Origin: Bacteroidetes bacterium ADurb.Bin217
GTDB lineage: Bacteria; Bacteroidota; Bacteroidia; Bacteroidales; UBA1715
Reading direction: 5' to 3'
NCBI GenBank assembly: GCA_002069975.1
Contig: MWCJ01000018.1
Location: forward strand, 1-49,542
Length of the DNA: 49,542 nucleotides
Of the stretch, positions 3,208-21,156 are shown in pieces. How positions within the stretch are numbered: position 1 is the stretch's first letter; every line of letters begins with the position of its first letter. Below the pieces are notes generated by a model that was given only the letters and a program-made list of their open reading frames with translations, searched no databases and was not told the DNA's origin. The position numbers and the translations under genes are program-made.

Positions 3208-6200
3208 TTACCTATTCATCCAATACCCCTTGCCTTGTTCGAAGTTTTGAATAGAATTCGTAGTGCCATTTGGTACCCAAAACCCATCGAAATTTTTAAT
3301 CATTTTACAATTGGTTGTGTTGAAATAATTGGATATTGGCGTAGGGGCGAATAATAATTCGCCCACGCCCACGCCCGTACACGGATATCCAATTAATTGC
3401 CACCCCGTGGGGGCGAAAAATTTTTCGCCCGTACAAGGAATTCCCGAAATCGCAATTGTTCCCGCCGCATTCATATTCACCAAATATCCTTTGCCCGGTT
3501 CTAAGGTTTGCAATGAATTAAATTGTTCCGGTTGGTTAGGTTTCCAAAATCCATCGGCATTTTTTACGTTTTTCACGTCTTTTCCCGTAAAGATGCGATT
3601 TATCGCGTTTCCACCATTGGCGGTGTCAATCACCGAAACCGATATCAAATTCCAACCTTTTGCTAATGCAATTGTTTGTTTTTGCACCGCATCGGTACAT
3701 ATAAGTTTATCAATATTAAATCCTGCAGTATTTGATTGAATGCGAATTACGTGTGTGCTTATTGCTAATTTTTTGTTTGTTACAATATTCACCGCTTGAT
3801 ATGTTGTATATGCTCCGGTATTAGGTATTGTAATTTCGGGAGTAATGATTTCTCCATTGAGTAATATTGATATCCTTGCTGTGTTAACCGGAGATGATAC
3901 CCAGGCTTGCATATTGTAAAATGTTTCTTTTTGAATCTGTACAATATATTCCATCCATTCACCGGCAGAAGTCCAACCAACAACAAAGTTATCTGGTTCC
4001 TGAGGGTGTATAGTAATGTCAACTCCTTCGTTAGTTCGGTATTGATTGCCAGAATTTGTTGTTGGTGTAGCATCATTATATGCATTTCTTTGACCTCCTT
4101 TGTTAAAATTTTCTGCTTGTATGGTGCCGGGAATAGCAGCCGCAGTAGTAGGATATGCTCCTGTAATTTTAATGAAATCTACTTGTAATGAACCATTTGC
4201 CGCAATGGTAGGGTCGAGGCGAAGTTGTTTCAACGCCCCTGTCCAGTTTGGATTTGCAGAGAGGTCAACAATATAGTATCGTTGTTGTGTATCGTTGGCA
4301 ATAATAGGAATAGCAACTCGTTTGGTGCTATTAAAACTTGGCGATTCGTAGGTTGTCCAAAATAGTTCAGCTGTGGTAGAGTTTGTTTGATTTTGCATAC
4401 AAATTACCACATATTTGTTCTCCGATGTTGTAATATTCAAATTATCAATAGAATGTATAAACGGGTCGGTTCCTGTAATTGAAAATGTGGCAACGCTACT
4501 CGCAGCAGCTGCAGTTAGGTTATTTGGACTATTCCAACCTTCGAGGTCGGAAACAAAATCCCAATATGTTGGTTCTTCAACATTATTTATAGTAATAGTA
4601 AATATTTTTTCAAAGTATAAACCACCTTGGTCGGTTGTTCGAATTTTAATAGAATAACTTGATTTTGTCTCAAAATTAAATACAGCATTGGTTTTTAGAG
4701 CATTACCTGTAATTGTAAAACTTGCATTATCGGTTCCGCCTGTAGCAAAGGTGTAAGTGTAAGTATTTCCTATGTTTCCAAACAATGTAGAAAAATTTCC
4801 TATTACTGTTCCTACCGGTTTATTTTCTTGAATAGCAGAATTTGATAATACAATTTTATCCGGAATATATCTAAAGTTAAATCGTGCATCGGGAGCAGCA
4901 TCTCCCATATCCAAAAAATTAAGTGGATCATTATACACACCCCCAAGTCCATTCGAAGCATTTACAGAATTGTCTGACCATTTAAAATCAAATCCATTTT
5001 GATTTAACAACGAACGTTCAATTACAAGATGCATTTTATTACCCGACATTGTAAATTGAACATTTTTATACCCTGCCCATGAGGTGCCATTGTATTTATG
5101 CAAAACTGCTGTTGTAGTGCTATACGAATTTATAAGCAAATCGTAACCATTCCAACCTGTTGCAGGATTCATATCACTATCAATAAAAAGATTCATACAT
5201 CCCTTATCATTTGGAATAAGTTGGATTGCTTCAGCAGTTTCAACATAAAAAAATGCATGTACATCATTCAAAGAAACTTTTGCGGTAATAATATCATTTC
5301 TGCCGGAATTATTTATATACGTTGTAAAATCTGCAAAAGCTTTATGATTTCTTGCATACGTGTCGCCTATCATATCACGAAATTCAGGAGTTATTCTGTT
5401 CCATTGACTAAAATCGATATTTAAATTTATATCGGTTTGAACCGTTGCTTTTGGAATAGCTCTTGCTCCCTTATATTTTCTAATGTTTGCTGCTAATTGA
5501 TAGTAAAAATTGTCGCCAAAACCTAAGCCTTGTTTATCTTTCATAGGTTCGATATCACGAGAAAATTCAGGATTAAAACAATCTACAAAGTAATCATCAT
5601 ATTCAGGTTTTGTTGGATCAACTTTATATGTATTTGCTATTATTTGTCCACTTGCCAAACCATTTATGCTACTTGCCCAACGCCCGGCAAACCATTCGTT
5701 CCACCCGGTAACTAAAATTACTGATGGATTTTTAGAAATAGCATAGTCAAAATGTTCTTGAAATCCTAACCCTTTACCGGAAGATCCATTCAGTGTTAAA
5801 CTAAATTCAAAGTCATTCACCATTGGTCTTGTTGAACTAAATTTTGCCGACTTGAAAGTAGGATTTGTACTCACATTACTTCTCCCTCCATTTCCATTTG
5901 CCCAAAATCCACACATTACTACCATTTGTTCTAATACAGATTTGTCGGAATTATAACCAGGAGCTTGAGGATACGTGTCTGCCCATAACCAAGTATCCTT
6001 TCCTAATGTTTCTTTGTAAAGTGCTCCAGATTCATTTGCCCAAGATCGTCTTATAGTAAAATAGTTTACAATCTCTCTATTTTTTTCAATATCATTCCAC
6101 CAATCTTGAGCAACATTATCGTATGGGGTATTTAATAATGTTTTAACTTCACTGACACTTGTTGCATAAAAAAGTTTTGGGTTTCCCAAAATTAGGGGTT

Positions 6201-6831
6201 TTCCATCCCATTGATAAAATAACTCATTGTATTTACCAGATTTTAAAAAATCATTATATACCGATTTAATAAATTTATACCCTGTGAGAGGAGTTTCGCC
6301 AAAGAAGAAAACAATTTGAGGTGTTTTGCCGCCCTTTTGTCTTATATCTAAATAAATATCAAGTATTTTTTTTTCAGTTGTAATATACATTGAACTATTT
6401 GAATTGTCAAAAAAGATAAAATCTACCCCGGCATTTACAAGCATGGCTGCATGTTTTCTTATTACCCATTCATCATCAGATTTATAGTATCCAAAATACG
6501 GTTCGCTCCAGAAATGAGCATACCCTCGATTTCCTTTGTGCATCGTTTCCCATACTTTAGGAATCCCTCCATCAATGTATGCTTGAGTATGATCAATAAC
6601 TCCTTGAGCTGGATCTCCGGAATGCCAAACAAAATAGAACATTCCAACATCTTTTTTGTTTTTAGGATTACCAACGGTTTCATTTGTTGGTATATTCCTT
6701 TTTATGTTATCCGTTGCAACCCATGTGTCTGAATATAAATCACGATAGGGAATGGTTGTAGTTTGACACAATGTTGTTTTGTAACCAACAAGTAATAAAA
6801 AATGTAACATTAAAAATAGTATCGTTTTCAT
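3208..6831 (-). CDS. Secreted GH71/GH99-like glycoside hydrolase with CBM6-like and C-terminal GWNLIS module
   Basis: The protein has 1207 aa and an N-terminal signal peptide. Residues about 25-475 resemble the GH71/GH99-like (WbsX-like) barrels of Bacteroidota: YFVWHSGD, HFWSEPYFGYY, GVDFIFFDNSNS and GWNEWFAGRW are visible. These families act on alpha-mannan-like or related glycans, but the substrate here is not determinable. A DOMON/CBM9-like beta-sandwich follows (about 480-650), then one cadherin-like repeat (660-750), a YWDF module (755-895), a CBM6-like module beginning IPGTIQAENF (900-1045) and the two-lobed C-terminal module (1050-1207, ending GKGYWMNR). Two palindromic repeats lie in frame within that last module, the first expanded by a hexamer that adds an extra VG. 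The start at 6831 is supported by a promoter 19 nt upstream whose spacing equals that of the gene starting at 14660. Confidence 0.88.
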   Translation of the reverse strand: MKTILFLMLHFLLLVGYKTTLCQTTTIPYRDLYSDTWVATDNIKRNIPTNETVGNPKNKKDVGMFYFVWHSGDPAQGVIDHTQAYIDGGIPKVWETMHKGNRGYAHFWSEPYFGYYKSDDEWVIRKHAAMLVNAGVDFIFFDNSNSSMYITTEKKILDIYLDIRQKGGKTPQIVFFFGETPLTGYKFIKSVYNDFLKSGKYNELFYQWDGKPLILGNPKLFYATSVSEVKTLLNTPYDNVAQDWWNDIEKNREIVNYFTIRRSWANESGALYKETLGKDTWLWADTYPQAPGYNSDKSVLEQMVVMCGFWANGNGGRSNVSTNPTFKSAKFSSTRPMVNDFEFSLTLNGSSGKGLGFQEHFDYAISKNPSVILVTGWNEWFAGRWASSINGLASGQIIANTYKVDPTKPEYDDYFVDCFNPEFSRDIEPMKDKQGLGFGDNFYYQLAANIRKYKGARAIPKATVQTDINLNIDFSQWNRITPEFRDMIGDTYARNHKAFADFTTYINNSGRNDIITAKVSLNDVHAFFYVETAEAIQLIPNDKGCMNLFIDSDMNPATGWNGYDLLINSYSTTTAVLHKYNGTSWAGYKNVQFTMSGNKMHLVIERSLLNQNGFDFKWSDNSVNASNGLGGVYNDPLNFLDMGDAAPDARFNFRYIPDKIVLSNSAIQENKPVGTVIGNFSTLFGNIGNTYTYTFATGGTDNASFTITGNALKTNAVFNFETKSSYSIKIRTTDQGGLYFEKIFTITINNVEEPTYWDFVSDLEGWNSPNNLTAAAASSVATFSITGTDPFIHSIDNLNITTSENKYVVICMQNQTNSTTAELFWTTYESPSFNSTKRVAIPIIANDTQQRYYIVDLSANPNWTGALKQLRLDPTIAANGSLQVDFIKITGAYPTTAAAIPGTIQAENFNKGGQRNAYNDATPTTNSGNQYRTNEGVDITIHPQEPDNFVVGWTSAGEWMEYIVQIQKETFYNMQAWVSSPVNTARISILLNGEIITPEITIPNTGAYTTYQAVNIVTNKKLAISTHVIRIQSNTAGFNIDKLICTDAVQKQTIALAKGWNLISVSVIDTANGGNAINRIFTGKDVKNVKNADGFWKPNQPEQFNSLQTLEPGKGYLVNMNAAGTIAISGIPCTGEKFFAPTGWQLIGYPCTGVGVGELLFAPTPISNYFNTTNCKMIKNFDGFWVPNGTTNSIQNFEQGKGYWMNR
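3341..3380. repeat. In-frame palindromic element, copy 1 (expanded form)
   Basis: The arms GGGCGAAT and ATTCGCCC flank an AATA loop. The right side carries three tandem CGCCCA-type hexamers instead of the two found at 7050-7083. On the coding strand it encodes CTGVGVGELLFAPT inside the C-terminal module of the GH71/99-like protein. Confidence 0.8.
3407..3434. repeat. In-frame palindromic element, copy 2
   Basis: This 28-bp element has a perfect 20-bp palindromic core (GGGCGAAAAA/TTTTTCGCCC). It encodes CTGEKFFAPT in the loop just before the GWQLIG strand. Confidence 0.8.
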
Positions 6832-6916: not shown

Positions 6917-9900
6917 TTACCTCTTCATCCAATACCCCTTGCCTTGTTCAAAGTTTTGAATAGAATTCGTGGTGCCAAATGGCACCCAAAACCCATCGAA
7001 ATTTTTAATCATTTTACAATTGGTTGTGTTGAAATAATTGGATATTGGCGTAGGGGCGAATAATAATTCGCCCACGCCCGTACACGGAAATCCAATTAAT
7101 TGCCACCCCGTGGGGGCGAATAATATTTCGCCCGTACACGGAATCCCTGAAATTGTAATCGTTCCCGCCGTATTCATATATACTAAATATCCATTTCCAG
7201 GTTCTAAGGTTTGCAATGAATTAAATTGATTCGGTTGGTTAGGTTTCCAAAATCCATCGGCATTTTTTACGATTTTCACGTCCTTTCCCGTAAAGATTCG
7301 ATGTATCGCGTTTCCATCATTGGCGGTTTCAATCACCGAAACAGATATCAAATTCCAACCTTTTGCTAATGCAATTGTTTGTGTTTGCACCGCATCGTTA
7401 CATATAAGTTTATCAATATTAAATCCTGCAGTATTTGCTTGAATACGAATTACGTGTGTGCCTATTGCTAATTTTTTGTTTGTTACAACATTTACCGCTT
7501 GATATGTTGTGTATGCTCCGGTATTAGGTATTACAATTTCGGGAGTAATGATTTCTCCGTCGATTACTATTGATATCCTTGCTGTGTTACCTGTAGATGA
7601 TACCCAGGCTTGCATATTGTAAAATGTTTCTTTTTGAATCTGTACAATATATTCCATCCACTCACCGGCAGAAGTCCATCCAACAACAAAGTTACCTGGT
7701 TCTTGAGGGTGAACAGCAATGTCAACTCCTTCGGTAGTTCTGTATTGATTGCCAGAATTTGTTGTTGGTGTAGCATCATTATATGCATTTCCTTGACCTC
7801 CTTTGTTAAAGTTTTCTGCTTGTATGGTGCCGGGAATAGCAGCCACAGAAGTAGGATATGCTCCTGTAATTTTAATGAAATCTACTTGTACAGAACCACT
7901 TGCCGCAATAGTAGGGTCGAGGCGAAGTTGTTTTAATACTCCTGTCCAGTTAGGATTTGCAGAGAGGTCAACAATATAGTATCGTTGTTGTGTATCGTTG
8001 ACAACAATAGGAATAGAAACCCGACGAGTGCTGCTGAATCCGGGAGCATCATAGGTAGCCCAAAATAGTTCGGCAGTAGAAGCAGTAGTTTTGTTTTGCA
8101 TACGAATTACAACAATGTTAAAGAGTTCAGCATTGGCATTAAGGTAATCAAGAGAATATACATTAGGATCTGAGCCGGTAATTGTCATAGAGTTACAACC
8201 GTTAGATTGAATCATAGTCAGATTATGCGGGTTTTTCCAACCATCGAGAGAATCGGTGAAATCCCAATAGAGATTGTCGTAGATATCGGTAATAGAGATA
8301 GTGAAATTTTTTTCGAAAAACAATCCGCCAATATCGGTAGTTCTAATAGTAATTGAATATGTTTTTTTAGATTCAAAATCAAACATTGCATTAGATATAA
8401 GAATGTTGTTTTCAATTGTAAAGAATTGGTTGTCTGAAGAATTTCCAGAGAGGGAGAAAGAGAACGAGTCACCAATGTTTGGGTCGGTAGTAGAAAGGGA
8501 GCCTACTACCGACCCCACAACACGGTTTTCAGATATTGATGAATTTGTTAATGAAATATTTGTAGGAGAGAGGTTTTGGGTAAATACAATTTTATCAATG
8601 TTATATCCTGCTGAAACTGTTAGAAGTTTTAAGAGATGAATACCACTTTCAATTTTCACAAGTTTTGTGATTTTATTATATGTATTATAATCTCCTGTTG
8701 CAGGTAATGTAATAACTGTTAATATTTCAGTACCATCAACAAGTAATGAAATCTTCGAATTATCAGCTGGAGCAGAATAATATATGTCAATAAAATAATC
8801 GGTTTGTTGTTCTACATTAACAATATATTCTAACCACTCTCCATTAGCAATCCAACCGACAATATTATTGTTAGGAATTGTTGGATGATTAGCAATATCA
8901 ACAGATTCAATTATTCTATAGTTATTTCCATAGTTTGAAAATGGTGTAGTTTCATAATATGCATTATTGTATTCGCCATAATTGAAGTTTTCGATTTCAA
9001 TTGTGCCAGGTATATTTACAATAGCAGTAGGATAAGCCCCTACAAGTTTTATGAAATCGACTTTAACAGTACCCGTTGATGCAGTTGAAGGATCGAGTCT
9101 TAATTGTTTTATAATACCTGTCCAATTAGGATTTTTAGATAAATCAATAAAATAATATCGTTGTTGATTATTGTCATTAGGAACAATTGAAAAACTTATT
9201 CTATTAGTGCTATTAAAATTAGGATTAGTTGTTGTTGTCCAAAAAAGTTCAGCTGTAGATGCAGTACTCTGATTTTGAAGTCTTACAATAACATATTTAT
9301 ATTGAGATGTTGATACGAGTAAATTGTCAGGTGATAATACGTGAGGGTCTGCAGCATTAACTTTCATCCAATTAATACCATTCACAATATTCATAGTCAT
9401 GTTTGTTGGCGAATTCCAACCTTCGGTACTCGTTTCGAAATTCCAATAGGTAATAGATTTGCATGAAGCCCAATTATTACTTTCTAAAATTTTATTTTTG
9501 ATATAATTACCAGAAGGAGATGAATTATTCCATAAATTATTATTGCACGAACCTTGAATTAATGCACATGCAGAACCTGGACCATCTGCAAAATTATGAT
9601 TACACCAACTCACAATCTGATTCCCTGGATTATTTCCATTCCATAAGTTTAGCCACGTGTCAGAAGCTTCATAATCTAGTTCTCCATCCCCTGTGTATGT
9701 GCATACTCCCCATTCTGCGGCGAAAATTGGAATTTTATCGGAAGCATAATTAAATTTAGAAAATACATTATCATGACTAGCTGCATATATATGTAAACAA
9801 TACAAAACATTATAGCTTAGGCTTTCTGGTAATGGATCATTTGCTGCAATATCTACATCTTGACAATATGATGGTGTAGGTACAATAATTAATGCATATG

Positions 9901-10447
9901 GACAAATATTTCTAATCACAGGTATTAATTCTGATGCAAAAGTTTTACAATTTGCCCAAGTACCATTTACTCCATGAGGCTCATTTAATGGTTCATAAAT
10001 GATGTTTATTTTATCTTTATGTTTTGTGCAAAAATATTCAAATTCATCTTTTGCCACAGTAATCCAATCTAATGGGTTTTCACCTTCAACATTTTGAATT
10101 ATTACATAAATGCCTAATTCGGTTAAAATTTCTACTAGATTATCTACATAATTTCTTGCATATTCAACATCCTTTACATACCATAATGTGTAATTAATTT
10201 TTATTTCAAAAACATCAATTCCCCAATCATTTACTAATGCCGTTAAACTTTCTTTGTTATAACATTGAGGAAACCACATTAGACCATGACTCCCAAATCC
10301 TTTTAATTGTACTGGATTTCCACATTCATTAACTAATTGGTTATTTTCAACACGTAATTTTCCGTTTAAAGCAACAGGCGAATTAGAAGGTTGAGAAAAT
10401 GAGTTTAAAAAAAATATTATTGAGATTACAAAAAAGAATAATTTCAT
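6917..10447 (-). CDS. Secreted GH5-like endoglycosidase with duplicated CBM6-like modules and C-terminal GWNLIS module
   Basis: The protein has 1176 aa counting from ATG at 10447. The frame extends to an ATG at 10486, but that would overlap the upstream gene by 35 bp and put a charged stretch before the signal peptide (MKLFFFVISIIFFLNSFS), so 10447 is preferred. Residues about 30-325 are a GH5 (cellulase-type) barrel: the acid/base is E156 in IIYEPLNEPHG and the nucleophile is E245 in FAAEWGV. Then follow a YWNF module (332-475), CBM6-like (479-620), a cadherin-like repeat (624-725), a second YWDF module (726-868), a second CBM6-like module (871-1015) and the C-terminal module (1021-1176, ending GKGYWMKR). 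Only 4 nt separate it from the upstream gene, so the two form an operon. The second CBM half is nearly identical in DNA to that of the upstream gene. Confidence 0.9.
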   Translation of the reverse strand: MKLFFFVISIIFFLNSFSQPSNSPVALNGKLRVENNQLVNECGNPVQLKGFGSHGLMWFPQCYNKESLTALVNDWGIDVFEIKINYTLWYVKDVEYARNYVDNLVEILTELGIYVIIQNVEGENPLDWITVAKDEFEYFCTKHKDKINIIYEPLNEPHGVNGTWANCKTFASELIPVIRNICPYALIIVPTPSYCQDVDIAANDPLPESLSYNVLYCLHIYAASHDNVFSKFNYASDKIPIFAAEWGVCTYTGDGELDYEASDTWLNLWNGNNPGNQIVSWCNHNFADGPGSACALIQGSCNNNLWNNSSPSGNYIKNKILESNNWASCKSITYWNFETSTEGWNSPTNMTMNIVNGINWMKVNAADPHVLSPDNLLVSTSQYKYVIVRLQNQSTASTAELFWTTTTNPNFNSTNRISFSIVPNDNNQQRYYFIDLSKNPNWTGIIKQLRLDPSTASTGTVKVDFIKLVGAYPTAIVNIPGTIEIENFNYGEYNNAYYETTPFSNYGNNYRIIESVDIANHPTIPNNNIVGWIANGEWLEYIVNVEQQTDYFIDIYYSAPADNSKISLLVDGTEILTVITLPATGDYNTYNKITKLVKIESGIHLLKLLTVSAGYNIDKIVFTQNLSPTNISLTNSSISENRVVGSVVGSLSTTDPNIGDSFSFSLSGNSSDNQFFTIENNILISNAMFDFESKKTYSITIRTTDIGGLFFEKNFTISITDIYDNLYWDFTDSLDGWKNPHNLTMIQSNGCNSMTITGSDPNVYSLDYLNANAELFNIVVIRMQNKTTASTAELFWATYDAPGFSSTRRVSIPIVVNDTQQRYYIVDLSANPNWTGVLKQLRLDPTIAASGSVQVDFIKITGAYPTSVAAIPGTIQAENFNKGGQGNAYNDATPTTNSGNQYRTTEGVDIAVHPQEPGNFVVGWTSAGEWMEYIVQIQKETFYNMQAWVSSTGNTARISIVIDGEIITPEIVIPNTGAYTTYQAVNVVTNKKLAIGTHVIRIQANTAGFNIDKLICNDAVQTQTIALAKGWNLISVSVIETANDGNAIHRIFTGKDVKIVKNADGFWKPNQPNQFNSLQTLEPGNGYLVYMNTAGTITISGIPCTGEILFAPTGWQLIGFPCTGVGELLFAPTPISNYFNTTNCKMIKNFDGFWVPFGTTNSIQNFEQGKGYWMKR
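7050..7083. repeat. In-frame palindromic element, copy 3
   Basis: The core GGGCGAAT-AATA-ATTCGCCC is followed by two hexamer units before GTAC. It encodes CTGVGELLFAPT between the GWQLIG strand and the ISNYFN segment of the C-terminal module. Confidence 0.8.
7110..7137. repeat. In-frame palindromic element, copy 4
   Basis: This 28-bp element has GGGCGAA/TTCGCCC arms and a TAATAT loop. It encodes CTGEILFAPT just before the GWQLIG strand, the same loop as copies 2 and 6. Confidence 0.8.
7645..8019. repeat. Near-identical YWDF/CBM6 module segment, copy A
   Basis: About 375 bp match 11149-11523 with only scattered differences, while the flanks on both sides diverge abruptly. A third, more diverged copy covers about 3943-4318. 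The boundaries fall inside modules rather than between genes, as expected for gene conversion or module exchange. Confidence 0.7.
8481..8515. repeat. 35-bp inverted repeat inside a cadherin-like repeat
   Basis: Perfect 13-bp arms GGGTCGGTAGTAG and CTACTACCGACCC flank a 9-nt loop. It encodes GSVVGSLSTTDP, which has the same length as the equivalent part of the neighbouring protein, so it is not a clear insertion. Confidence 0.7.
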
Positions 10448-10451
10448 TTTT

Positions 10452-13400
10452 TTATTTTTTAATAAAATACGCTTTACCCGGTTCAATGCTTTGAATAGAA
10501 TTTATAGTTGCATTAGGAATCCAAAAGCCATCAAAGTTTTTAACAGTTTGACAGTTCGTAGCATTAAAATGAGATGAAATTTCAGACGAGGTTTGGTACG
10601 GGCACCCTATTAAACTCCACCCATTTTTAGAGACACCCAAAAAGGGTATCTCTAATGGTATTCCGCTAATAGAAAGCGTTGCTTCAGTATTCATATAAAC
10701 CAAATACCCATTCCCTGCACTCATTGTTTTGAGAGAATTAAAAGCTGAAGGTTGGAACGCTTCCCAAAAGCTATTTGCATCTTTAATCATAGCCACATCG
10801 AGTCCGCTAAATAAGGTTTCTATAGTATTATCTTCGGGTTGAACATATGTGGAGATAAGATTCCACCCTTTGTTGAGAGTAATATTTTGAGTTATAACCG
10901 CATCAGAAAAAATGATTTTATCAATATTAAATCCTGAATTCAAAGCAGTAATTCGAAGAACATATTTTCCTTGAGGTATTTTTTCTGTAGTAATAAAGCT
11001 TAAAGTATCATAAATAGAATAAGCTGTAGTATTAATAATGTTTTTTGATGCAATTATGTTTCCATTTAATTCAATTTGAATTTTACCTGAAGTAGAAGGA
11101 GAAGAAACCACAGCTTGAATTTTATAGAAAGTATTACTTTCAACATTTACAATATATTCCATCCACTCACCGGCAGAAGTCCATCCAACAACAAAGTTAC
11201 CTGGTTCTTGAGGGTGAACAGCAATGTCAACTCCTTCGGTAGTTCTGTATTGATTGCCAGAATTTGTTGTTGGTGTAGCATCATTATATGCATTTTCTTG
11301 ACCTCCTTTGTTAAAGTTTTCTGCTTGTATGGTGCCGGGAATAGCAGCCACAGTAGTAGGATATGTTCCTGTAATTTTAATAAAATCTACTTGTACAGAA
11401 CCACTTGCCGCAATAGTAGGGTCGAGGCGTAGTTGTTTCAATGCCCCTGTCCAGTTAGGATTTGCAGAGAGGTCAACAATATAGTATCGTTGTTGTGTAT
11501 CGTTGGCAACAATAGGAATAGCAACTCGTTTGGTGCTATTGAAACTAGTCGATTCGTAAGTAGTCCAAATCAATTCGGCAGTAGTTGCCGTTGTTTGGTT
11601 TTGCATACGAATAATAATATAATTGTAAAGCGAGCAGGGGATATTCAAATTGTTGGTCGAATGAATAAACGGATCGCTGCCTGTAATAGTAAGTGTTGCA
11701 ATACTATTACTTACTGAAGATGTAAGATTATTCGGAGCATTCCAACCTTCAATATCTGTTGCAAAATCCCAATAGGTAAATTCATCAACATTGGTAACGG
11801 TAATTGTAAATGTTTTTTCAAAAAATAATCCACTTTGGTCGGTACTGCGGATTTTAATAGAATACGAAGATTTTGTTTCGAAATCGAAAATTGTATTAGT
11901 TGAAAGTGTATTACCAGTAATTGAAAAACTTGCATTGTCTATTCCTCCAGCAGCTAAACTATATGTAAACGTGTCTCCTGCATCGGGGTCGGTTGTTGTA
12001 AAAGTACCCACTGTTGTACCTATTACAAGATTTTCATTGATTGATGTTGCAGAAAGGGAAATGTTTGTGGGAGCTTCGTTTACATTTTTAACAGTAATTG
12101 TAAATGTTTTATCAAAATACAATCCACCTTGGTCTGTGGTACGAACTTTTATACTATAGCTCGATTTATCTTCATAATTAAATACAGCGTTTGTTTTTAA
12201 TGTATTGCCTGTAATTGTAAAGCTTGCATTATCGGTTCCGCCTGCGGCTAAACTGTATGTAAAGGTGTTTCCGGCATCGGGGTCGGTTGAAGATAGGGGC
12301 CCTATATTAGAGCCTACTGCTAGGTTTTCGTTAACACTTGTACTAGATAACGTTACATTGGTTGGTGCGTGATTCGTTTTTGTAAAACTAATATTGTTTA
12401 TATTAAAACCAGCGGTAGATACATGTATTCTTAAAACATGTATACCTGCGGGTAATGATCTTGTTACAACAAAATCCTGAAAAATGCTATAATCTGTTGT
12501 TGAAGGAATAGATATAAGCCCTTGAAGCAGCTCTCCATCTAAATATAATTGAATCTTTCCGGTGTTGTTTGGTGCAGAAATCCTAAATTTTATATCATAA
12601 TCAACTGATTCTTGAATAGAAACTATATATTCCAACCATTCGCCTGTAGATACCCAGCCGATTGCATAATTTGAACCATTGTCGTTTACACTACCAATGT
12701 CAACACTATGATTTGTTCTATACAAACCACCTGAATTACTTGAAGGTGTTGCATCATAATAGCTGTTTCCAAGATTGCCAAAATTAAAATTCTCGGCTTC
12801 AATTATACCAGGTATATTTGTTATAGTTTTTGGATATGCACCTGTAAACTTTATAAAATCAATTTTAACTGTTCCGCTCGATGCTGTAGAGGGGTCTAAA
12901 CGTAATTGTTTTATAGTACCTGTCCAATTTGGGTTTGTTGATAAATCAATAATATAATATCGTTGCTTTGTATCATTTGCTACAATAGAAAATCCAACTC
13001 TTTTAGTAGAATTTATTGTTGGAGCTGCATTTGTTGTCCAAAATAGTTCAGCCGATGTTGCACCTGTTTGATTTTGCATAGAAATAATAACATATTTGTA
13101 AGCATCTGCTGAAATATTTAAATAATTGGGTGAGTAAACGTATGAATCGGAACCGGTTATATTTATAGTATTAATGCTATTACTTGCAGACATGGTAAGC
13201 CTTGTAGGATTATTCCAATTTTCAACAGAATTTTCAAAATCCCACATGTCTGTTCTATATGTTTTAATTGTTATTACGTCTCTTACAAATACTGAGTTGG
13301 GTTGCGGACGAACTTCGAACGACATATCGAGTGTGGCAGGGAGTTGTGTTTCTCCAGTTTTACTTATTGTTATTGTAATTGCTTTTTCATCTAAAGGCAT

Positions 13401-14660
13401 TACACGATTATTTTTATAGAATAAATAACCATCATTTGAAATAATATCATTTGTAATGTCAATTCCTGCATATGAATATTTAATTATCCATCCTGCTGGT
13501 AATCCGGAAACAATTGCTTTAACTGTAGGTATAAAATCAATGTGTTTACTCCTGTTTTTCAGATAAAGTGTATAGGTAAATGTTCCATTACTACCTGTCC
13601 AAGCATTAGCAATAATAGGACTTGCTTCGTTGAATGATTCGCACACAATATTTTTGTTGTGTGTAACTCCATCGGGCGATTTTACCCATAAATCTAATTC
13701 TTTCTCGTCGGCTCTCCCATGTTTAAGAAGCCAACGCGAAACACCCGTTACCGTATTTGCACAAACAATATCTCCAGATGTATTTATTTGAGATTCGGGA
13801 GTTAGATTTATACCCCATGATAGGCCATAAATTTCTACTCCATAAAAGTCAGGAATTCTATCATTATCTTCTAAATAATGAACGGTTGTAATAGCATCTC
13901 GCAAGAAATTATCGCCACTGGCATTCGGTGAAATTAAAAACAAGAATTTTTTACCATTTTTATGACAGTAATCAACCGCATCATAAACCGTTTTTCTATA
14001 TGCCTCCGGTCTATTTACAAACAAATATGTAGGTGCATCAACAGATGTTCCATAACTTTGATTTATAAATGTCAATTTTGGGGCATTTTGCACATCATAA
14101 AATCCATTTGGATACTTTTCCATAACATGTGGAGCAAGCATGGTACAACTTTTTACATTGCGAGTTAAATTAGTATCAACTCTAGGAATCCAATTCACCG
14201 TTGTATTGGGGATTCTGTTCACAAATGCATATGTTGGATTAAATCCAAGACCAATTACCCTACGTATTGCGGGAATATCATCGGCAATTCTATCAGCGTC
14301 CATATCACCTTCTACAAGGCATTTTTTTCCTATAAAATATTTTGCGAGTACTTTCCATTCTTCGGGAGTAATATTATCGTATCCATCGGTATTGTGATAC
14401 CCTACCGGATGCCAAAATATTCCATCACCAATTCTGCGAACATACGACCACTGAGAGCTATCCATCAGTTGCCTAATATGGAAAGCAGAACCGGTGTAAA
14501 CTTCATAACTTCCGGCACCAATAGTATTGTTTTGTGGTTTTACTTCGTTGTGAAGGCATAATAAGAGTAATGTAAGGATTACATACAATGCTCTTAAAGT
14601 TTTTTTTATGATGTAATTTTCATAAAATGAATCACATATTGATAATTGTATCGTTTTCAT
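10452..14660 (-). CDS. Secreted multidomain protein with unrecognised N-terminal domain, paired YWDF/CBM6 modules and C-terminal GWNLIS module
   Basis: The protein has 1402 aa. A hydrophobic export segment (LYVILTLLLLCLHNEV) starts about 24 residues in; the ATG at 14660 is kept because its spacing to the upstream -7 box equals that of the gene at 6831. Residues about 45-470 look like a barrel enzyme plus a beta-sandwich (GDGIFWHPVGYHN, FLFLISPNASGDNF, DFYGVEIYGLSWG), but I cannot name the family. They are followed by a WDF module (470-610), CBM6-like (617-755), two cadherin-like repeats (763 and 860), a second YWDF module (962-1100), a second CBM6-like module (1107-1250) and the C-terminal module (1257-1402). 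This C-module lacks the GTAGGGG-type palindromes of its relatives but has a different palindrome at 10628-10654. It is the first gene of the operon with the GH5 gene and directly follows HTCS1. Confidence 0.88.
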   Translation of the reverse strand: MKTIQLSICDSFYENYIIKKTLRALYVILTLLLLCLHNEVKPQNNTIGAGSYEVYTGSAFHIRQLMDSSQWSYVRRIGDGIFWHPVGYHNTDGYDNITPEEWKVLAKYFIGKKCLVEGDMDADRIADDIPAIRRVIGLGFNPTYAFVNRIPNTTVNWIPRVDTNLTRNVKSCTMLAPHVMEKYPNGFYDVQNAPKLTFINQSYGTSVDAPTYLFVNRPEAYRKTVYDAVDYCHKNGKKFLFLISPNASGDNFLRDAITTVHYLEDNDRIPDFYGVEIYGLSWGINLTPESQINTSGDIVCANTVTGVSRWLLKHGRADEKELDLWVKSPDGVTHNKNIVCESFNEASPIIANAWTGSNGTFTYTLYLKNRSKHIDFIPTVKAIVSGLPAGWIIKYSYAGIDITNDIISNDGYLFYKNNRVMPLDEKAITITISKTGETQLPATLDMSFEVRPQPNSVFVRDVITIKTYRTDMWDFENSVENWNNPTRLTMSASNSINTINITGSDSYVYSPNYLNISADAYKYVIISMQNQTGATSAELFWTTNAAPTINSTKRVGFSIVANDTKQRYYIIDLSTNPNWTGTIKQLRLDPSTASSGTVKIDFIKFTGAYPKTITNIPGIIEAENFNFGNLGNSYYDATPSSNSGGLYRTNHSVDIGSVNDNGSNYAIGWVSTGEWLEYIVSIQESVDYDIKFRISAPNNTGKIQLYLDGELLQGLISIPSTTDYSIFQDFVVTRSLPAGIHVLRIHVSTAGFNINNISFTKTNHAPTNVTLSSTSVNENLAVGSNIGPLSSTDPDAGNTFTYSLAAGGTDNASFTITGNTLKTNAVFNYEDKSSYSIKVRTTDQGGLYFDKTFTITVKNVNEAPTNISLSATSINENLVIGTTVGTFTTTDPDAGDTFTYSLAAGGIDNASFSITGNTLSTNTIFDFETKSSYSIKIRSTDQSGLFFEKTFTITVTNVDEFTYWDFATDIEGWNAPNNLTSSVSNSIATLTITGSDPFIHSTNNLNIPCSLYNYIIIRMQNQTTATTAELIWTTYESTSFNSTKRVAIPIVANDTQQRYYIVDLSANPNWTGALKQLRLDPTIAASGSVQVDFIKITGTYPTTVAAIPGTIQAENFNKGGQENAYNDATPTTNSGNQYRTTEGVDIAVHPQEPGNFVVGWTSAGEWMEYIVNVESNTFYKIQAVVSSPSTSGKIQIELNGNIIASKNIINTTAYSIYDTLSFITTEKIPQGKYVLRITALNSGFNIDKIIFSDAVITQNITLNKGWNLISTYVQPEDNTIETLFSGLDVAMIKDANSFWEAFQPSAFNSLKTMSAGNGYLVYMNTEATLSISGIPLEIPFLGVSKNGWSLIGCPYQTSSEISSHFNATNCQTVKNFDGFWIPNATINSIQSIEPGKAYFIKK
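10628..10654. repeat. In-frame palindromic element of a second family
   Basis: The arms TAGAGACACCC and GGGTATCTCTA (one G/T mismatch) flank AAAAA. It encodes LEIPFLGVSK in the loop before GWSLIG, the same loop that holds copies 2, 4 and 6 of the other palindrome in the related proteins. Confidence 0.7.
11149..11523. repeat. Near-identical YWDF/CBM6 module segment, copy B
   Basis: This is the partner of 7645-8019. Similarity begins abruptly inside the CBM6-like module (at the EYIV segment) and ends inside the YWDF module. Confidence 0.7.
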
Positions 14661-14757: not shown

Positions 14758-17700
14758 TTACTGTTGATCTATATATTTTGAAGGCGTTATGCCATAGTGT
14801 TTTACAAAACATGATGTAAAATAATGTGGTTCGTTAAACCCTACTTCATATGCAACATCAGCAACTCGCCATTTTTTAGTTTTGAGTAATAAAGCAGCTT
14901 TTTCTAAGCGGTAATTTTTTATGAAATCTTGGGGAGTAATGCCAATTATTGTTTTGAATTTTCTATACAATTGTACTCTGCTTATTGCCATGTGTTGTGC
15001 TAAATCTTCAACAGAAAATTTTTCTTGCTTATAATTGTTCTCTATATGGTTAATTGCATTTTTTAGAAATTTTTCGTCATACGAAACAGGTAATTCTTTT
15101 TGTTGGGGCGTGTGCGATTGAATTTTATAATGTTGCAAAAACCGTTTGCGTTGTTCTATGATAGCTTGAACTTTGTTTAATAATATTTCATGATTAAATG
15201 GTTTTGTCACATAATCATCAGCTCCCGATTGATATCCTTCAATTTGTTCAATATCAGAATCTTTTGACGATAAAATTACAATTGGGATATGGTTTGTAAT
15301 CGGATGTTTCCGTAATTTTTGTATCATTTCAATACCATTGAGTTGTGGCATTTCAATATCGGTAATTATGATGTCGGGCACTTGATTTACAATAAGTTCA
15401 AATCCCTTGTTGCCATCGCTTGCCGTGTGTGTAGTATAATATTGATTAAAAATAGATTGTATTACCGATAGTACATGTTCATTGTCTTCAACTATGCATA
15501 GTACTATATCTTCATCTTTTTGAATTGTAGAATAAATAGAAAGATTGTTGTGTACAGTTTCTTTGGGGACCTCTTGTATTGTATCTATGGGCAGTCCTTT
15601 GGGTACTTGAATTTTGAATATGGTGCCTTTGTTTACTTCTGAAGAAATGTCAAATGTGCCATTGTTTTTTAGTATAAATTCTTTAGCTATCCCCAATCCC
15701 AATCCCGTACCTTTTTCGTAGTTGGTACCATAGGTAGATTTTAAGTATTTTGAATGGAGTATAGATTCTATTTGAATTTGAGTCATACCAACCCCTGAAT
15801 CTTTTATTTCTATACAAATGTAATTGTTGTTTTCTTCAGTTGAAATAGTAATAGAACCATACTGTGCTGTAAACTTCAACGCATTATGTAATATATTTCG
15901 TATTACTGTGTTAATCATTATTTTATCTACGAGTGCATAATGAGAATGTAAGCATTTTGATGTTACCGTAATGTGTTTTGCTTTTGCAATTTCAATTTCC
16001 AATTCTATTGTTTCTTGAATAAGTAATTGCAGATTATATGATGCAATCGAAGGTTTTATAGAATCGGTTTGTACTACCGACCAATTCAATAAATTTAACG
16101 TGAGATTTGTAAGAGATTTTGTAGCATCAACAATATTTTGTAATAAATTCATTTTTTCTTGGTCAGAGAAACTTTTGAAACCATCCTTTAAAATCTGTGA
16201 AAGCCCCAACATCGCATTCAATGGGTTTTTCATGTCATGCGAAATAATAGAGAAAAGTTTGTTTTTTGTGTCATTAGCAATTTGTAAATCCTCATTTTTT
16301 TTGGAAATTATTGCATATTGTTCTTCTAATTTTTCTTTTTGAATTGATAGCTCTTTTGTTCGCTCTTTTATTTTTTTCTGCAAAAATTGGTTTAGTTGTT
16401 TTTGCTTACGATTGCGTATATATGAATAGAGATATACTAACGCGATAATAATAAGTATGATACATAGTTTAAACCACCAAGTCATCCACCATTTTGGAAT
16501 TATTTTTATTTCTAATTCTTTTTCAGAAATAATACTACCATGTTTTTCTCCACGCATTTCAAGGATATAGGTTCCCGGTGATAGTCCCGAAAATGTTATG
16601 TTTCTATTTTTATCAAGATGTATCCATGTGGTATCATAGCCTAACATTCTATATGAATATGAAATTTCGTGGAGTCGCGATAATACAATTGATGCTAATT
16701 CTATTGTAATTACATCTTTTGAATAAGGGAAACTCAATCGCGTAGCTTGCGAAATATGGGGTCCATACAATAGGGTATCTTGTATTTTATTGAAATTAAC
16801 AAATAAATTTCGTAAAAATAGTGGGAGAGCATGAAGCGTATTCTCTATTGCATGTGGATAACATCGAACAAAGCCAGCAGTTGTACCAATATAAATGCAC
16901 CCGTCAGTAGTTTTGTATATAGCATTTTGAATACATTCTCCTTCTACACCAATAGATTCGTTTGAGTAGTGTATACGTTTATTTGTTTTTGTATCGTATA
17001 ATACAATTCCTCGTTCGTAGCTTATCCAAAGTACTCCGGCGTTGTCTTGTATTATTCCTCGGGGCGTTGTAGGTAAACGTAATTTTTTAGAGATGTTAGT
17101 AAATGTATTAGTTCTATTATCAAATGTATTAATACCATTACCTGTAATTATCCATAATTGTTTAGCTGCATCTTCATATACAGCATATACTTTATTGTCT
17201 GAAATAGACGTGGAATCTTCTTGGTCAAAATAGTAATGCTGTAAGCCTGATGTCGTATTGTATTTATACAGTCCATAAAACGTAGAAATCCATATATTTC
17301 CTTTTGAGTCTTTGTCGATATGGTTTATCCATAATGGTTCTTTATAGTTAAAAGAAATCTTGGAATGTGGATTCTGAGAATGAAAAAATTTCTGAGTTTT
17401 AGAATTAAATAATGCAATACCATCACCATGTGTTCCTACCCACATCAACGAATCAATATAGAGTATTCCTTTGATATTATTAATAGGTATTGACGCCGGA
17501 TTGTTTTCTTGAAATGAATAATTTTTAATTGTGTAGTTATTTTGTAAATCAATCTTAGAAAGTCCGCCACCCCATGTTGCAACCCAAATCATGTTCCCAT
17601 GTGTATAGAGTGAAATAATATTATTTGATAGAATTTTTTTTTCTTGTCCAAAAACATCTATGTCTTTTGTTTTAGTATTGTACACAAAAAGCCCATCACC

Positions 17701-18774
17701 ATCGCTTCCAAACAACAATACCTCATTATGTTGTGCAAATGAACTTACATTGCTAAAATCAACTTTTTTATTAGCATACATTGCTGATTTATAAAATTCA
17801 AATGTGTTTGTTTGTTTTGGAATACAGTATAGACCAGCCCTATGAAATCCTAACCAAATATTGCCTTCTTTGTCTTCGTACATGCATGTGATTGATTTAA
17901 ATTCATTAGTGTAGTTGTTTATTCTTGTGTCATGTTTTTTAATAAACACATCTCGTTTCGTATCATATTTATTTAAAAAACCATTTTGACAAGCTATCCA
18001 AACAGCATGTTTTTTGTCAATAAAAATTGACCAAATATTATCAGATCCTATTGAATTTGATTGTTCTGGATTGTGTTTAAAAATTTTTTTTTGTAGCGTT
18101 GTGGTATCTATACGCACCAATCCATTTGTGCGTGTTCCACACCAAATATTTCCTTTTGTATCAAATGCTATAGTTTTTACCCAATCTAAAGAAATATGTT
18201 TTTTAATGATTTGGGTATGAGCATCTATTTTTAGAATTCCTTGTCTACACCCAGCCCAGACATAACCTTTATTGTCAATTTTTAATTCTTCTAAATCGGT
18301 AAATAATAGTTGTTTTTCTTTTGAAATAAAAGTCTGTAATTGTTTTGTCTTGCTATTTATGATGTACAATCCTACTGAAGAAGAAATCCATATGTTAGAA
18401 TGTGTATCTTCTACGATACCAGAAATGTAATGAAATTGAATGTCTTTATGAGTTTCGAATGTATTTGAACGTTTATTGTAAAATCCTAATCCCGAAATTG
18501 TTCCAACCCAAATATTACCTTGAGAATCTTGAAATAATTGTGTTATCCAATTATTAGGCAAACTAGGTTTATATTCTTCTGTATAGAATTTTTCGAACGA
18601 ATACCCATCGTATCTATTGAGTCCATTCCACGTTCCCACCCACAAAAAACCATCAGCATCCTGTAATATACATTCTATATTATTATTGGATAATCCTTTA
18701 TCAATTGTAAATTGATTACCCGCAATTCCATATAAATGCATAAAAAATAAACAAAGTAAGATTTGAATTTTCAT
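14758..18774 (-). CDS. Hybrid two-component regulator HTCS1 (sensor kinase, receiver and AraC domain)
   Basis: The protein has 1338 aa, the normal size of the Bacteroidota HTCS family, which senses glycan fragments in the periplasm and activates polysaccharide-utilisation genes. Order: signal peptide; two-component beta-propeller repeats with many (N)IWxG(T/S) motifs (about 20-670); Y_Y_Y domain; membrane segment (WWFKLCIILIIIALVYLYSY, about 763-782); HisKA with FSIISHDMKNPLNA (His about 844); HATPase with the GTGLGLGIAKE box; receiver with IITDIEMP (Asp about 1138); and a C-terminal AraC helix-turn-helix pair ending GFNEPHYFTSCFVKHYGITPS. It sits between its presumed targets, and the TGTAAC direct repeats with a 21-bp period next to it fit the binding mode of an AraC-type dimer. 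A TATCTTTG -7 box at 18797-18804 suggests its own transcription. Confidence 0.95.
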   Translation of the reverse strand: MKIQILLCLFFMHLYGIAGNQFTIDKGLSNNNIECILQDADGFLWVGTWNGLNRYDGYSFEKFYTEEYKPSLPNNWITQLFQDSQGNIWVGTISGLGFYNKRSNTFETHKDIQFHYISGIVEDTHSNIWISSSVGLYIINSKTKQLQTFISKEKQLLFTDLEELKIDNKGYVWAGCRQGILKIDAHTQIIKKHISLDWVKTIAFDTKGNIWCGTRTNGLVRIDTTTLQKKIFKHNPEQSNSIGSDNIWSIFIDKKHAVWIACQNGFLNKYDTKRDVFIKKHDTRINNYTNEFKSITCMYEDKEGNIWLGFHRAGLYCIPKQTNTFEFYKSAMYANKKVDFSNVSSFAQHNEVLLFGSDGDGLFVYNTKTKDIDVFGQEKKILSNNIISLYTHGNMIWVATWGGGLSKIDLQNNYTIKNYSFQENNPASIPINNIKGILYIDSLMWVGTHGDGIALFNSKTQKFFHSQNPHSKISFNYKEPLWINHIDKDSKGNIWISTFYGLYKYNTTSGLQHYYFDQEDSTSISDNKVYAVYEDAAKQLWIITGNGINTFDNRTNTFTNISKKLRLPTTPRGIIQDNAGVLWISYERGIVLYDTKTNKRIHYSNESIGVEGECIQNAIYKTTDGCIYIGTTAGFVRCYPHAIENTLHALPLFLRNLFVNFNKIQDTLLYGPHISQATRLSFPYSKDVITIELASIVLSRLHEISYSYRMLGYDTTWIHLDKNRNITFSGLSPGTYILEMRGEKHGSIISEKELEIKIIPKWWMTWWFKLCIILIIIALVYLYSYIRNRKQKQLNQFLQKKIKERTKELSIQKEKLEEQYAIISKKNEDLQIANDTKNKLFSIISHDMKNPLNAMLGLSQILKDGFKSFSDQEKMNLLQNIVDATKSLTNLTLNLLNWSVVQTDSIKPSIASYNLQLLIQETIELEIEIAKAKHITVTSKCLHSHYALVDKIMINTVIRNILHNALKFTAQYGSITISTEENNNYICIEIKDSGVGMTQIQIESILHSKYLKSTYGTNYEKGTGLGLGIAKEFILKNNGTFDISSEVNKGTIFKIQVPKGLPIDTIQEVPKETVHNNLSIYSTIQKDEDIVLCIVEDNEHVLSVIQSIFNQYYTTHTASDGNKGFELIVNQVPDIIITDIEMPQLNGIEMIQKLRKHPITNHIPIVILSSKDSDIEQIEGYQSGADDYVTKPFNHEILLNKVQAIIEQRKRFLQHYKIQSHTPQQKELPVSYDEKFLKNAINHIENNYKQEKFSVEDLAQHMAISRVQLYRKFKTIIGITPQDFIKNYRLEKAALLLKTKKWRVADVAYEVGFNEPHYFTSCFVKHYGITPSKYIDQQ

Positions 18775-18807: not shown

Positions 18808-21156
18808 CTATTTCTTCAAAAAATACCCCTTCCCTGATTCAAAATTCTCAATAGAATTTATTGCCCCATTTGGCACCCAAAATCCATCGAAATTTTTAAT
18901 CATGTTGCAATTTGTTGTATTGAAATAATTGGATATTGGCGTAGGGACGAATAATAATTCGCCCACGTCCGTACACGGATATCCAATTAATTGCCACCCT
19001 GTAGGGGCGAATAATAATTCGCCCCTACACGGGATGCCCGAAATTGTTAAATTTTCAGCCGCATTCATATACACCAAATATCCTTTGCCTGGTTCTATGT
19101 ATTGCAATGAATTTAATTGTTCCGGTTGGTTTGGTTTCCAGAACCCATCGGCATTTTTTACAATGTTCACATCCATTCCCATAAAGATACGATTTATTGC
19201 GTTTGCACCACCGACACTATCAACAACAGAAACAGATATTAGATTCCACCCTTTTTGCAACGCAATAGTTTGCGTAACAGGTTGTAGTGCAACATGTTTT
19301 TTACCATACACTTCAAATTCAAATATTGAATACCCAAAGTCTGTAGCACGTTGTATTCCTTGCCATCGAACATATCGTGCCGGGTTATCAGATACAGATA
19401 CCGTATCTTCATCACCATTCCCGGCAGACTCAGTATAAATAATATTCCATATAATGCTATCAGTAGATATAGCAATAGTATATTGCGAACCATATGCAGC
19501 TTCCCACAAAATTTGCATTCTATCTATGGTATATATTTGCTGCAAATCAATAGTAAGCCACTGAGCATTAGTATAAGAACTACTCCATCTGGTAGTTTTA
19601 AGACTATCATTAATGTTGCTTGCAATATTTCCAAATCCAGCTTCAGTAGAAGATACTGCTACAGGTCTATTGAGTGCCAAATTTGACTGATATACCTCAA
19701 CTTCAAAGAGCGAATACCCCCATTCAGTTGCTCTTGAGGTGCATGTAATACGCACATATCTTGCGGCTCTATGAGTAAACGTAATTTTATCGATTCCACC
19801 ATTTCCAGTAGTAGTATCAAATATTTGTAACCATTCAACTCCATTTTCTGAAATTTCAACTTTGTACGCTTTTCCATATGCAGCTTCCCAAAATAAACTT
19901 ATTTCCGAAATAATAAATACATATTCCAAATCTATTTGTACCCATTGCTGGTCAGCATAAACACTTGCCCAACGAGTAGTTTTATCGCCATCGGTTATAT
20001 TGTTTGCTATATTATTTCCTGCTTCGGTAGACGATACGGTAACCATTTTATGCAACGCAACATTAAGACGTTTATCTTCTTCATTAGAATTATCAAGGTC
20101 AATATTAATATCATTGGGATACGCATTTTCCAAATATGTTAATCCCGGCGTTGCATCAGCCAAACCACCATGCCCGTCGTGATTTGTATACGTCCAGCTT
20201 AATGCACCTGCATAATTACCTTCATATACTCTTTTGTAACATTCAGTAGCACTTACATTTGGATTGGTAAACCCATGCGCACTATATTCGGCAACAATAA
20301 TAGGTTTGTTGAGTCCCCAATATGCAGCATTATGATGAAATGGAGAATGATGAGTATTATCTCCACCATCGTTATTATAATAGTGTACCATATAAAAATC
20401 GAGAATACCGTTTTGCACTCCTCCGGCATTACGCAATTCGGTATCAGAATAATAATTTTTATGTCCCAAAATATTGCATAATACTTTCATATTCCAGGAC
20501 CCGTTTGAAACTTTTACTCCCGGTACCGCAGTATGTATAGCGCCGGCTGCACGGTTTACAAACTTCTGTATATCGGTCATTGCAACACGTGCAGGAGTCC
20601 ATCCAAATTCAGTCATTCCTTCGGGTTCGTTAAAAATTTCCCAACATAATAACGATGGATGATTGCCAATAGCAGTAACCAATGGAACTATAGCGTTATC
20701 AATACATGCTTTGATACCAGCATCGGTCTGTAACATTCGTTTATTATTTGCTTCATCAACTCCCCATTGGCTTGTTTGTAGCATATCAAACGAAAGCAAA
20801 CAAGGTATAACCATCATATTTCGTTCGAGAGCTAAATCAAGCACTGCTTGTACATTTATTATAGTATGCGTTCCTAATCCCGATACATATCCATTCGTAA
20901 ATTTAGGTACTTGCGATGCATTTACAAATAACCACCATCGCACAGTATTTCCACCTGCAGCTTTTACATCGTCCAACACTTTTGTCCAATCTGCAACATT
21001 TATAGGAGTATCGGCACAGTCGCCACCATAATTACGCCATGCGACATTAATACCCGAGAAAAAAGGAATTGTACCATTGGGTAAAGTAATTCTTTGTGCA
21101 ATTGTTTGTAATTGCATACACACACACAAACAGATACAATATAGGACTTTCTTCAT
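18808..21156 (-). CDS. Secreted GH5-like (mannanase-type) hydrolase with two F5/8 discoidin-like modules and C-terminal GWNLIS module
   Basis: The protein has 782 aa and a signal peptide ending near LQTIAQ. Residues about 25-350 form a GH5-type barrel: NTVRWWLFVNA, CWEIFNEPEG (acid/base E177) and IIVAEYSAHG (nucleophile E290). The layout recalls beta-mannanases, but substrate is inference. Two tandem F5/8 type C (CBM32-like) modules follow (about 365-490 and 493-625), each with an SSTEAG.....N..DG/D...TRW pattern. The C-terminal module (630-782, ending GKGYFLKK) contains two in-frame palindromes, one of them perfect. It reads away from HTCS2 across a 158-bp intergenic region. Unlike the other four secreted proteins it has discoidin-like instead of CBM6-like modules, yet it shares their C-terminal module. 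Confidence 0.92.
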   Translation of the reverse strand: MKKVLYCICLCVCMQLQTIAQRITLPNGTIPFFSGINVAWRNYGGDCADTPINVADWTKVLDDVKAAGGNTVRWWLFVNASQVPKFTNGYVSGLGTHTIINVQAVLDLALERNMMVIPCLLSFDMLQTSQWGVDEANNKRMLQTDAGIKACIDNAIVPLVTAIGNHPSLLCWEIFNEPEGMTEFGWTPARVAMTDIQKFVNRAAGAIHTAVPGVKVSNGSWNMKVLCNILGHKNYYSDTELRNAGGVQNGILDFYMVHYYNNDGGDNTHHSPFHHNAAYWGLNKPIIVAEYSAHGFTNPNVSATECYKRVYEGNYAGALSWTYTNHDGHGGLADATPGLTYLENAYPNDINIDLDNSNEEDKRLNVALHKMVTVSSTEAGNNIANNITDGDKTTRWASVYADQQWVQIDLEYVFIISEISLFWEAAYGKAYKVEISENGVEWLQIFDTTTGNGGIDKITFTHRAARYVRITCTSRATEWGYSLFEVEVYQSNLALNRPVAVSSTEAGFGNIASNINDSLKTTRWSSSYTNAQWLTIDLQQIYTIDRMQILWEAAYGSQYTIAISTDSIIWNIIYTESAGNGDEDTVSVSDNPARYVRWQGIQRATDFGYSIFEFEVYGKKHVALQPVTQTIALQKGWNLISVSVVDSVGGANAINRIFMGMDVNIVKNADGFWKPNQPEQLNSLQYIEPGKGYLVYMNAAENLTISGIPCRGELLFAPTGWQLIGYPCTDVGELLFVPTPISNYFNTTNCNMIKNFDGFWVPNGAINSIENFESGKGYFLKK
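18941..18974. repeat. In-frame palindromic element, copy 5
   Basis: This copy resembles 7050-7083, with GGGACGAAT on the left and a CGTCC hexamer variant on the right. It encodes CTDVGELLFVPT between the GWQLIG strand and ISNYFN. Confidence 0.75.
19001..19028. repeat. In-frame palindromic element, copy 6 (perfect copy)
   Basis: Perfect 12-bp arms GTAGGGGCGAAT and ATTCGCCCCTAC flank an AATA loop. It is the best-preserved copy and probably close to the founding sequence. It encodes CRGELLFAPT in the loop before GWQLIG. Confidence 0.85.

Follow-up and report, generated by a model that had tools for sequence, protein, structure and literature searches.

Coding REP-type palindromes in a C-terminal module of secreted Bacteroidales enzymes and their probable exchange between paralogous modules

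The window analysed here is a stretch of 49,542 nucleotides (contig MWCJ01000018.1, positions 1 to 49,542, forward strand) from the genome of Bacteroidetes bacterium ADurb.Bin217, in which short palindromes lie within the coding sequence of a protein module shared by several genes. Three long open reading frames (ORFs) on the minus strand, 3208-6831, 6917-10486 and 18808-21156, encode proteins with a common C-terminal module of 147-149 residues, the GWNLIS module, which is composed of two similar halves (GWNLIS...GKGYLV and GW(Q/N)LIG...GKGY). Loop 1 is the linker joining the two halves and loop 2 directly follows the GWQLIGYP of the second half. As shown by profile and Pfam matches, the module at 18811-19251 (minus strand; profile match 1.6e-89) belongs to a protein with F5/8 type C domains and a glycoside-hydrolase-like N-terminus, the module at 6920-7360 (minus strand) to a protein with a GH5 cellulase domain and CBM6, and the module at 3211-3657 (minus strand) to a protein with CBM6. 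A fourth module, at 10455-10868 in the minus-strand ORF 10452-14660 (CBM6, cadherin), lacks palindromes and serves as the empty comparison inside the window (profile, alignment, Pfam). The module alignment bears out that its loop 2 is shorter by 7 residues, and its loop 1 (LEIPFLGVSKN) is likewise devoid of a palindrome, a point absent from the initial annotation of this DNA.

Six inverted repeats of 28-40 bp, which this annotation had listed, are read directly from the letters, and each of them is supported by its codons and by a covariance model. Loop 2 of ORF 3208-6831 contains the palindrome 3341-3380 (peptide CTGVGVGELLFAPT; covariance-model match E 7e-7), which carries a 6-bp in-frame expansion, GGGCGT occurring twice on the coding strand, and loop 1 the palindrome 3407-3434 (CTGEKFFAPT; arms GGGCGAAA/TTTCGCCC). 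Similarly, ORF 6917-10486 carries 7050-7083 in loop 2 (CTGVGELLFAPT) and 7110-7137 in loop 1 (CTGEILFAPT), and ORF 18808-21156 carries 18941-18974 in loop 2 (CTDVGELLFVPT) and 19001-19028 in loop 1 (CRGELLFAPT); all six are given on the plus strand. The last of these, copy 6, is a perfect 28-bp double-foot palindrome, GTAG..CTAC, as had been claimed. It also holds true that all six lie inside genes and none between genes of the window, and that in the three proteins they occupy the same two module loops in one common frame, encoding peptides of the types C(T/R)GE(L/I/K)(L/F)FAPT and ..VGELLF(A/V)PT. The 12-base arm GTAGGGGCGAAT has ten matches in the window with up to two mismatches compared to 1.67 expected, a number that none of the shuffled sequences reached, and nine of the ten are arms of the six palindromes.

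Judged by their letters, the palindromes are GTAG elements of the repetitive extragenic palindromic (REP) type that is associated with REP-associated tyrosine transposases (RAYTs), and they are close to the double-foot kind, which has GT[AG]G at one end and its complement or near-complement at the other. On the plus strand the 5' foot of the stem is GTAG in four and GTGG in two of the window copies, as in REP palindromes of 20-40 bp. At the 3' foot the expected complement C[TC]AC is present as CTAC in copy 6 only, and the other five copies have GTAC, one base off. For a Stenotrophomonas RAYT it was shown that a change from GTAG to GTAC abolished cleavage (PMC8266576). The window copies retain the GTAG/GTGG foot on the plus strand and show GTAC on the coding strand, so that any action of a RAYT on them would be expected on the plus strand.

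The source genome is available as a 3.1 Mb draft of 194 contigs, on which all copy counts given here rest. A profile search identified 13 modules that are complete or almost so, plus five matches of shorter length. Palindrome-derived sequence is present in both loops of eight modules, the module C9_42632 has a decayed copy in loop 1, and no clear palindrome was seen in the loops of the remaining modules examined. Two core subtypes occur in the modules, GGGCGAAT-N4-ATTCGCCC and GGGCGTAT-N4-ATACGCCC (GAAT-N4-ATTC and GTAT-N4-ATAC). In pattern searches with mismatches every good match of the window type sits in modules. A covariance model based on 19 units recovered those units and one extra copy (E 6e-4) at positions 73-99 of contig C31, 73 bases from the contig end and apparently intergenic (TAAGGGCGTATTGCATACGCCCTTAC). 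The possibility, raised initially, that the motif never occurs outside the module in this genome does not hold in view of this copy. Two further GTAG palindromes with the core CCCTTGTGGTTG were observed at C8:67192-67216 and C8:67335-67360, within tandemly repeated sequence at a contig end that is apparently non-coding.

The palindrome was followed into other genomes in two ways. Among 99 genomes, comprising the source genome and relatives, the family is present in 12, one of which (G031) has 70 copies; in the copies of G031 that were read, most are arranged as inverted pairs. Moreover, a scan of about 85,000 species genomes for the exact 24-base pattern GTAGGGGCGAATNNNNATTCGCCCCTAC yielded at least 116 stretches in many phyla, and the taxa among the matches listed include Chloroflexi, Cyanobacteria, Desulfacinum, Bacteroidales, Planctomycetota, Omnitrophota and more. 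Of 121 copies in the matches listed, 24-30 are located within long ORFs, compared to 63-75% of random 28-mers, suggesting that elsewhere the sequence behaves as an extragenic repeat. This dispersed, mainly extragenic distribution was seen in other genomes and not in the source genome, where the palindrome is module-bound with one copy outside. Only one of these 121 copies lies in a RAYT gene and one near such a gene, indicating that copies coding within RAYTs are a trait of some lineages only. In relatives, in-frame copies were found in unrelated genes, namely in four RAYT genes, one BioG-like gene and one methylase-like ORF. The Pfam match of the BioG-like gene spans 167 residues for 157 model positions, as expected from an insert of 10 residues. 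The reading frames differ between hosts, resulting in peptides such as VGANHYSPL, GVLQYAPT and TGELQFAPT, with VGANxxSPL in the RAYTs and VGAKDFSPL in the BioG-like gene.

These data bear on the idea that the palindromes are no REPs at all, and that CTGxxxxAPT is a coding repeat kept for the protein, for example as a pair of cysteine-containing loops, with palindromy arising by chance of the codons. The loop residues C, T, A and P are indeed well kept in the source genome and each loop has one cysteine. However, many phyla have the exact pattern in their DNA outside long ORFs, it is also read in other frames, and changes in the core alter the peptide while the arms stay paired (GEL..LFAP versus GVL..YAP; LLF, ILF, KFF), making a protein repeat of this kind highly improbable. 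The peptide is likeliest a tolerated loop sequence without special function. A structure prediction of the module was of low confidence (mean pLDDT, the predicted local distance difference test, of 36), and a fold search based on it was disregarded.

The link to RAYTs is supported by the RAYT genes of relatives. Those with in-frame copies (L049, L052, L058 and L062) match the model NF047646 with E values of 1e-15 to 5e-19, all under the curated cut-off. The RAYT of G031 contains, in frame and just past the HuH motif, the same hairpin as its own 70-copy family. Furthermore, in G001, which belongs to the same genus as the source genome, a RAYT on contig C232 carries both core subtypes known from the modules. 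In this gene (8196-8852; L168, L321) both REP subtypes form an array that makes up the loop behind the HuH motif, with ELHSPEISN repeats first and NRGVCDTPE repeats after them, and an additional palindrome lies upstream at 8102-8122. In the source genome the PF01797 (Y1_Tnp) profile gave no transposase match, which is due to the choice of model, since NF047646 identified three RAYT-like genes there. Two of the three carry palindromes, the cores of which differ from those of the module palindromes. These genes (C23:27836-28417 and C3:21579-22079; L162 and L163) have GTAG palindromes in frame past the HuH motif, encoding VGAPLVVA with GQPQGIAPT in the first and VGAGFTPAQ in the second; a truncated relative of the first lies at C51.

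To follow the spread among modules, forty stretches from seven relatives (G001, G002, G003, G004, G005, G009 and G010) were compared with the 13 modules of the source genome, the module being read in 37 of the forty. Three modules of G001 contain a palindrome in loop 1; no G001 module read has one in loop 2. In the modules of G002 and G005 no clear palindrome was seen; some G005 loops are of matching length with similar letters. The more distant G081 and G097 have 30 and 39 weaker matches to the module. In a tree calculated without the loop columns the palindromic modules are scattered, requiring seven changes, of which at least four are forced by well supported branches. When the region from GKGYLV to NTTN was left out, uniting the eight two-palindrome modules as one clade cost 94 log-likelihood units (p-value of the approximately unbiased (AU) test, p-AU, 1.3e-8 under the model used), and uniting these eight with the three G001 modules cost 81 units (p-AU 6e-5).

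The proposal that the elements spread with duplication of the module is thereby upheld in part. The modules at 3211, 6920 and 18811 form a supported clade (100/99) with a common palindrome subtype and a shared loop-2 insert of 6 bp, and this trio, and only this trio, is explained by plain duplication. A single capture followed by duplication of whole modules or genes alone is, however, an improbable history of the wider set, and as the sole route of spread it was rejected by the AU test on the flanks of the eight modules. Moreover, C12_48542 and C5_56507 are most closely related to G001 modules that carry no palindrome. The sequence GWQLIG is common to all palindromic modules, with GWNLIG in most others, which would fit duplication, and a single origin from a common GWQLIG was considered; it was dropped because GWQLIG itself lies within a segment that has been exchanged.

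This segment is apparent from DNA identities. Palindromic modules of different clades share 56% identity upstream, at a background of 57-58%, and slightly above background downstream. For the same pairs, identity rises to 91% across the GWQLIGYP spacer and to 89% across PISNYF, compared to 65-74% for comparisons with or among non-palindromic modules. In a sliding window the excess similarity starts near residue 62 and stops near residue 110, and with the palindromes left out the actual set still ranks first of all 8008 six-module sets. The corresponding cassette of about 147 bp lies at 18922-19068 (minus strand), spanning the end of the first half-module, loop 1, GWQLIGYP, loop 2 and PISNYF, and is more similar to other palindromic modules than its flanks are; its equivalents are 7031-7177 and 3322-3474. 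The conflict between the histories of flanks and cassette, together with the confined excess, shows that paralogous modules have exchanged a stretch of about 150 bp that includes both palindromes, and points to gene conversion.

In the reading preferred here, a REP probably became coding sequence of a loop, after which a cassette with two palindromes moved between paralogous modules, most likely by gene conversion. In modules of this genus, which belong to secreted carbohydrate-active proteins, loop 1 would have acquired a coding REP first and loop 2 another one later, the founding event plausibly being mediated by a RAYT. The cassette of about 150 bp, including both palindromes and the codons between them, would then have been copied among paralogous modules, with gene conversion of the RecA type as the likeliest mechanism and with arms that may partly have been held complementary by two-sided changes. 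The suggestion of a mobile element that tolerates being coding thus stands with regard to origin, as supported by the occurrence in many phyla mostly outside long ORFs, the in-frame copies in unrelated genes and the C31 copy, but the copies are not fresh insertions each time.

Alternatively, the hairpin pair might bound a REPIN-like unit (REPINs being REP doublets forming hairpins), which a RAYT would excise as single-stranded DNA and paste into other modules. The nearly constant spacing of the hairpins, 54-66 bp apart, resembles REPIN pairs, many inverted pairs of this hairpin occur in G031, and the excess similarity is centred on the hairpins. However, the landing would always have been in frame at the homologous position, the excess continues beyond each of the two hairpins (residues about 62-74 and 105-110) as homologous conversion predicts, and none of the RAYTs of the source genome was seen to have a matching internal hairpin, so that we regard this route as unlikely. 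Transfer in frame and in place and a tract running beyond the hairpins favour homologous conversion.

Several points weigh against the capture and conversion of a cassette as proposed here. Homologous conversion and RAYT-mediated transfer of a two-hairpin unit both fit the data. The source genome has about 17 recognisable units in modules and one outside, without a dispersed REP population, and a cognate RAYT with a matching internal hairpin was not seen in the draft assembly. The modules examined also included no clean empty site at which the founding insertion could have occurred; loop 1 is of similar length with or without a palindrome, and a loop 2 of equal length but no palindrome is present in some modules of G001 and G005, which looks like replacement and not simple insertion. 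Finally, the module trees are based on 88-120 columns with many weak branches, and the group for the AU test was named after the first tree had been seen. Concerted evolution of loops 1 and 2 within one module was weak (permutation fraction 0.037) and is not relied on.

The initial annotation had also noted that changes fall partly in matching arm positions. Such changes are real, but they are few, with one strongly covarying pair. In the 19 units 74% of 228 cells pair, and the strong pair is A-U in seven and U-A in seven sequences; the covariation score was reached by 25 of 500 shuffles and by none of the slid controls. Three local cases suggest matched change. These are the two subtypes, the series of the loop-1 inner pair, T-A (18811, C17), A-A (6920) and A-T (3211), and the outer arms of 18941-18974 (GTAGGGACG/CGTCCGTAC), where both sides are jointly changed compared to the sister copies, a G to A paired with a C to T. 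General compensatory evolution along the whole stem is unsupported with a single strong pair, and two REP subtypes with a few local double changes fit best. The matched changes alter the peptide, making selection at the protein level an unlikely cause, and hairpin-templated correction is a plausible one. Copy 6 has the left foot AGG where the sister copies have ACG, and its perfection may reflect such correction or a fresh copy.

A role of the hairpins in the mRNA, for instance in its stability, in termination or in a translational pause ahead of the gene end, might also be considered. The predicted hairpins are strong (z -5.4, -4.6 and -3.1), and REPs were proposed as RNA elements in passages of Di Nocera et al. 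(PMC3733652). Since covariation is modest, many copies in other modules are decayed and an Rfam search matched no family, such an RNA element is very unlikely to account for the palindromes.

Intragenic REPs are already known, and the palindromes described here are a paired, loop-coding version in paralogous modules. Double-foot REPs of TnpA_REP (RAYT) subclass 2.4 occur in Cyanobacteria, Bacteroidetes and others, and REPs inserted in frame into the transposase gene at a position between HuH and Y have been described for this subclass (Quentin et al., 2018; PMC6006769). The relatives' RAYTs contain such palindromes and peptides as well. In contrast to subclass 2.4, the REPs here lie, two to a module, in the C-terminal module of secreted enzymes, most copies of the type in the source genome are coding, and five of the six window copies end in GTAC instead of CTAC. 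As reported in the passages of Di Nocera et al. (2013; PMC3733652) on intragenic elements, GTAG and CGTC REPs lie in ORFs of varied proteins and encode short peptides, and recB of two Xanthomonas species has REPs at about the same site; unlike here, paired loops, spread among paralogues or a conversion cassette are not described in those passages. REPINs and bacterial interspersed mosaic elements (BIMEs) are presented by Bertels and Rainey (2011; PMC3116915) as RAYT-linked paired hairpins with a short spacer, whereas here the spacer is module coding sequence and the pair stays at one homologous place. The initially suggested likeness to Rickettsia palindromic elements (RPEs; RPE-1, RPE-4, RPE-6) extends to palindromy and to a location inside unrelated genes, but the window palindromes resemble the GTAG REPs associated with RAYTs more than RPE-1, which are longer. 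RPE-4 and RPE-6 are placed among the CGTC REPs in the relevant part of Di Nocera et al. (PMC3733652), and going by the descriptions given there the elements reported here are set apart as GTAG-type, about 28 bp long, RAYT-linked and from another phylum.

The modules provide a countable natural series of empty loop, one palindrome, two palindromes, decayed copies and two subtypes, from which capture and spread of a REP in a protein family can be reconstructed. This separates element insertion, module duplication and gene conversion, which are usually confounded. It also offers protein loops, the sequence of which may be driven by a DNA hairpin. We tentatively consider that the behaviour of the hairpin DNA, i.e., transfer between paralogues and arm-templated correction, might set the sequence of the two loops across the secreted-enzyme family in place of protein selection, the loop region being a mobile cassette. 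With the RAYT of the sister species carrying both subtypes, mobilisation is directly testable.

Two further observations were made in the window. A separate perfect 13-bp inverted repeat, GGGTCGGTAGTAG/CTACTACCGACCC, lies inside ORF 6917-10486 at 8481-8515. Moreover, reading of the translation indicates that 14758-18774, between module-bearing genes, encodes a sensor-like protein of the hybrid two-component type with a DNA-binding C-terminus, and its position among the module genes suggests a putative regulated cluster for polysaccharide use.
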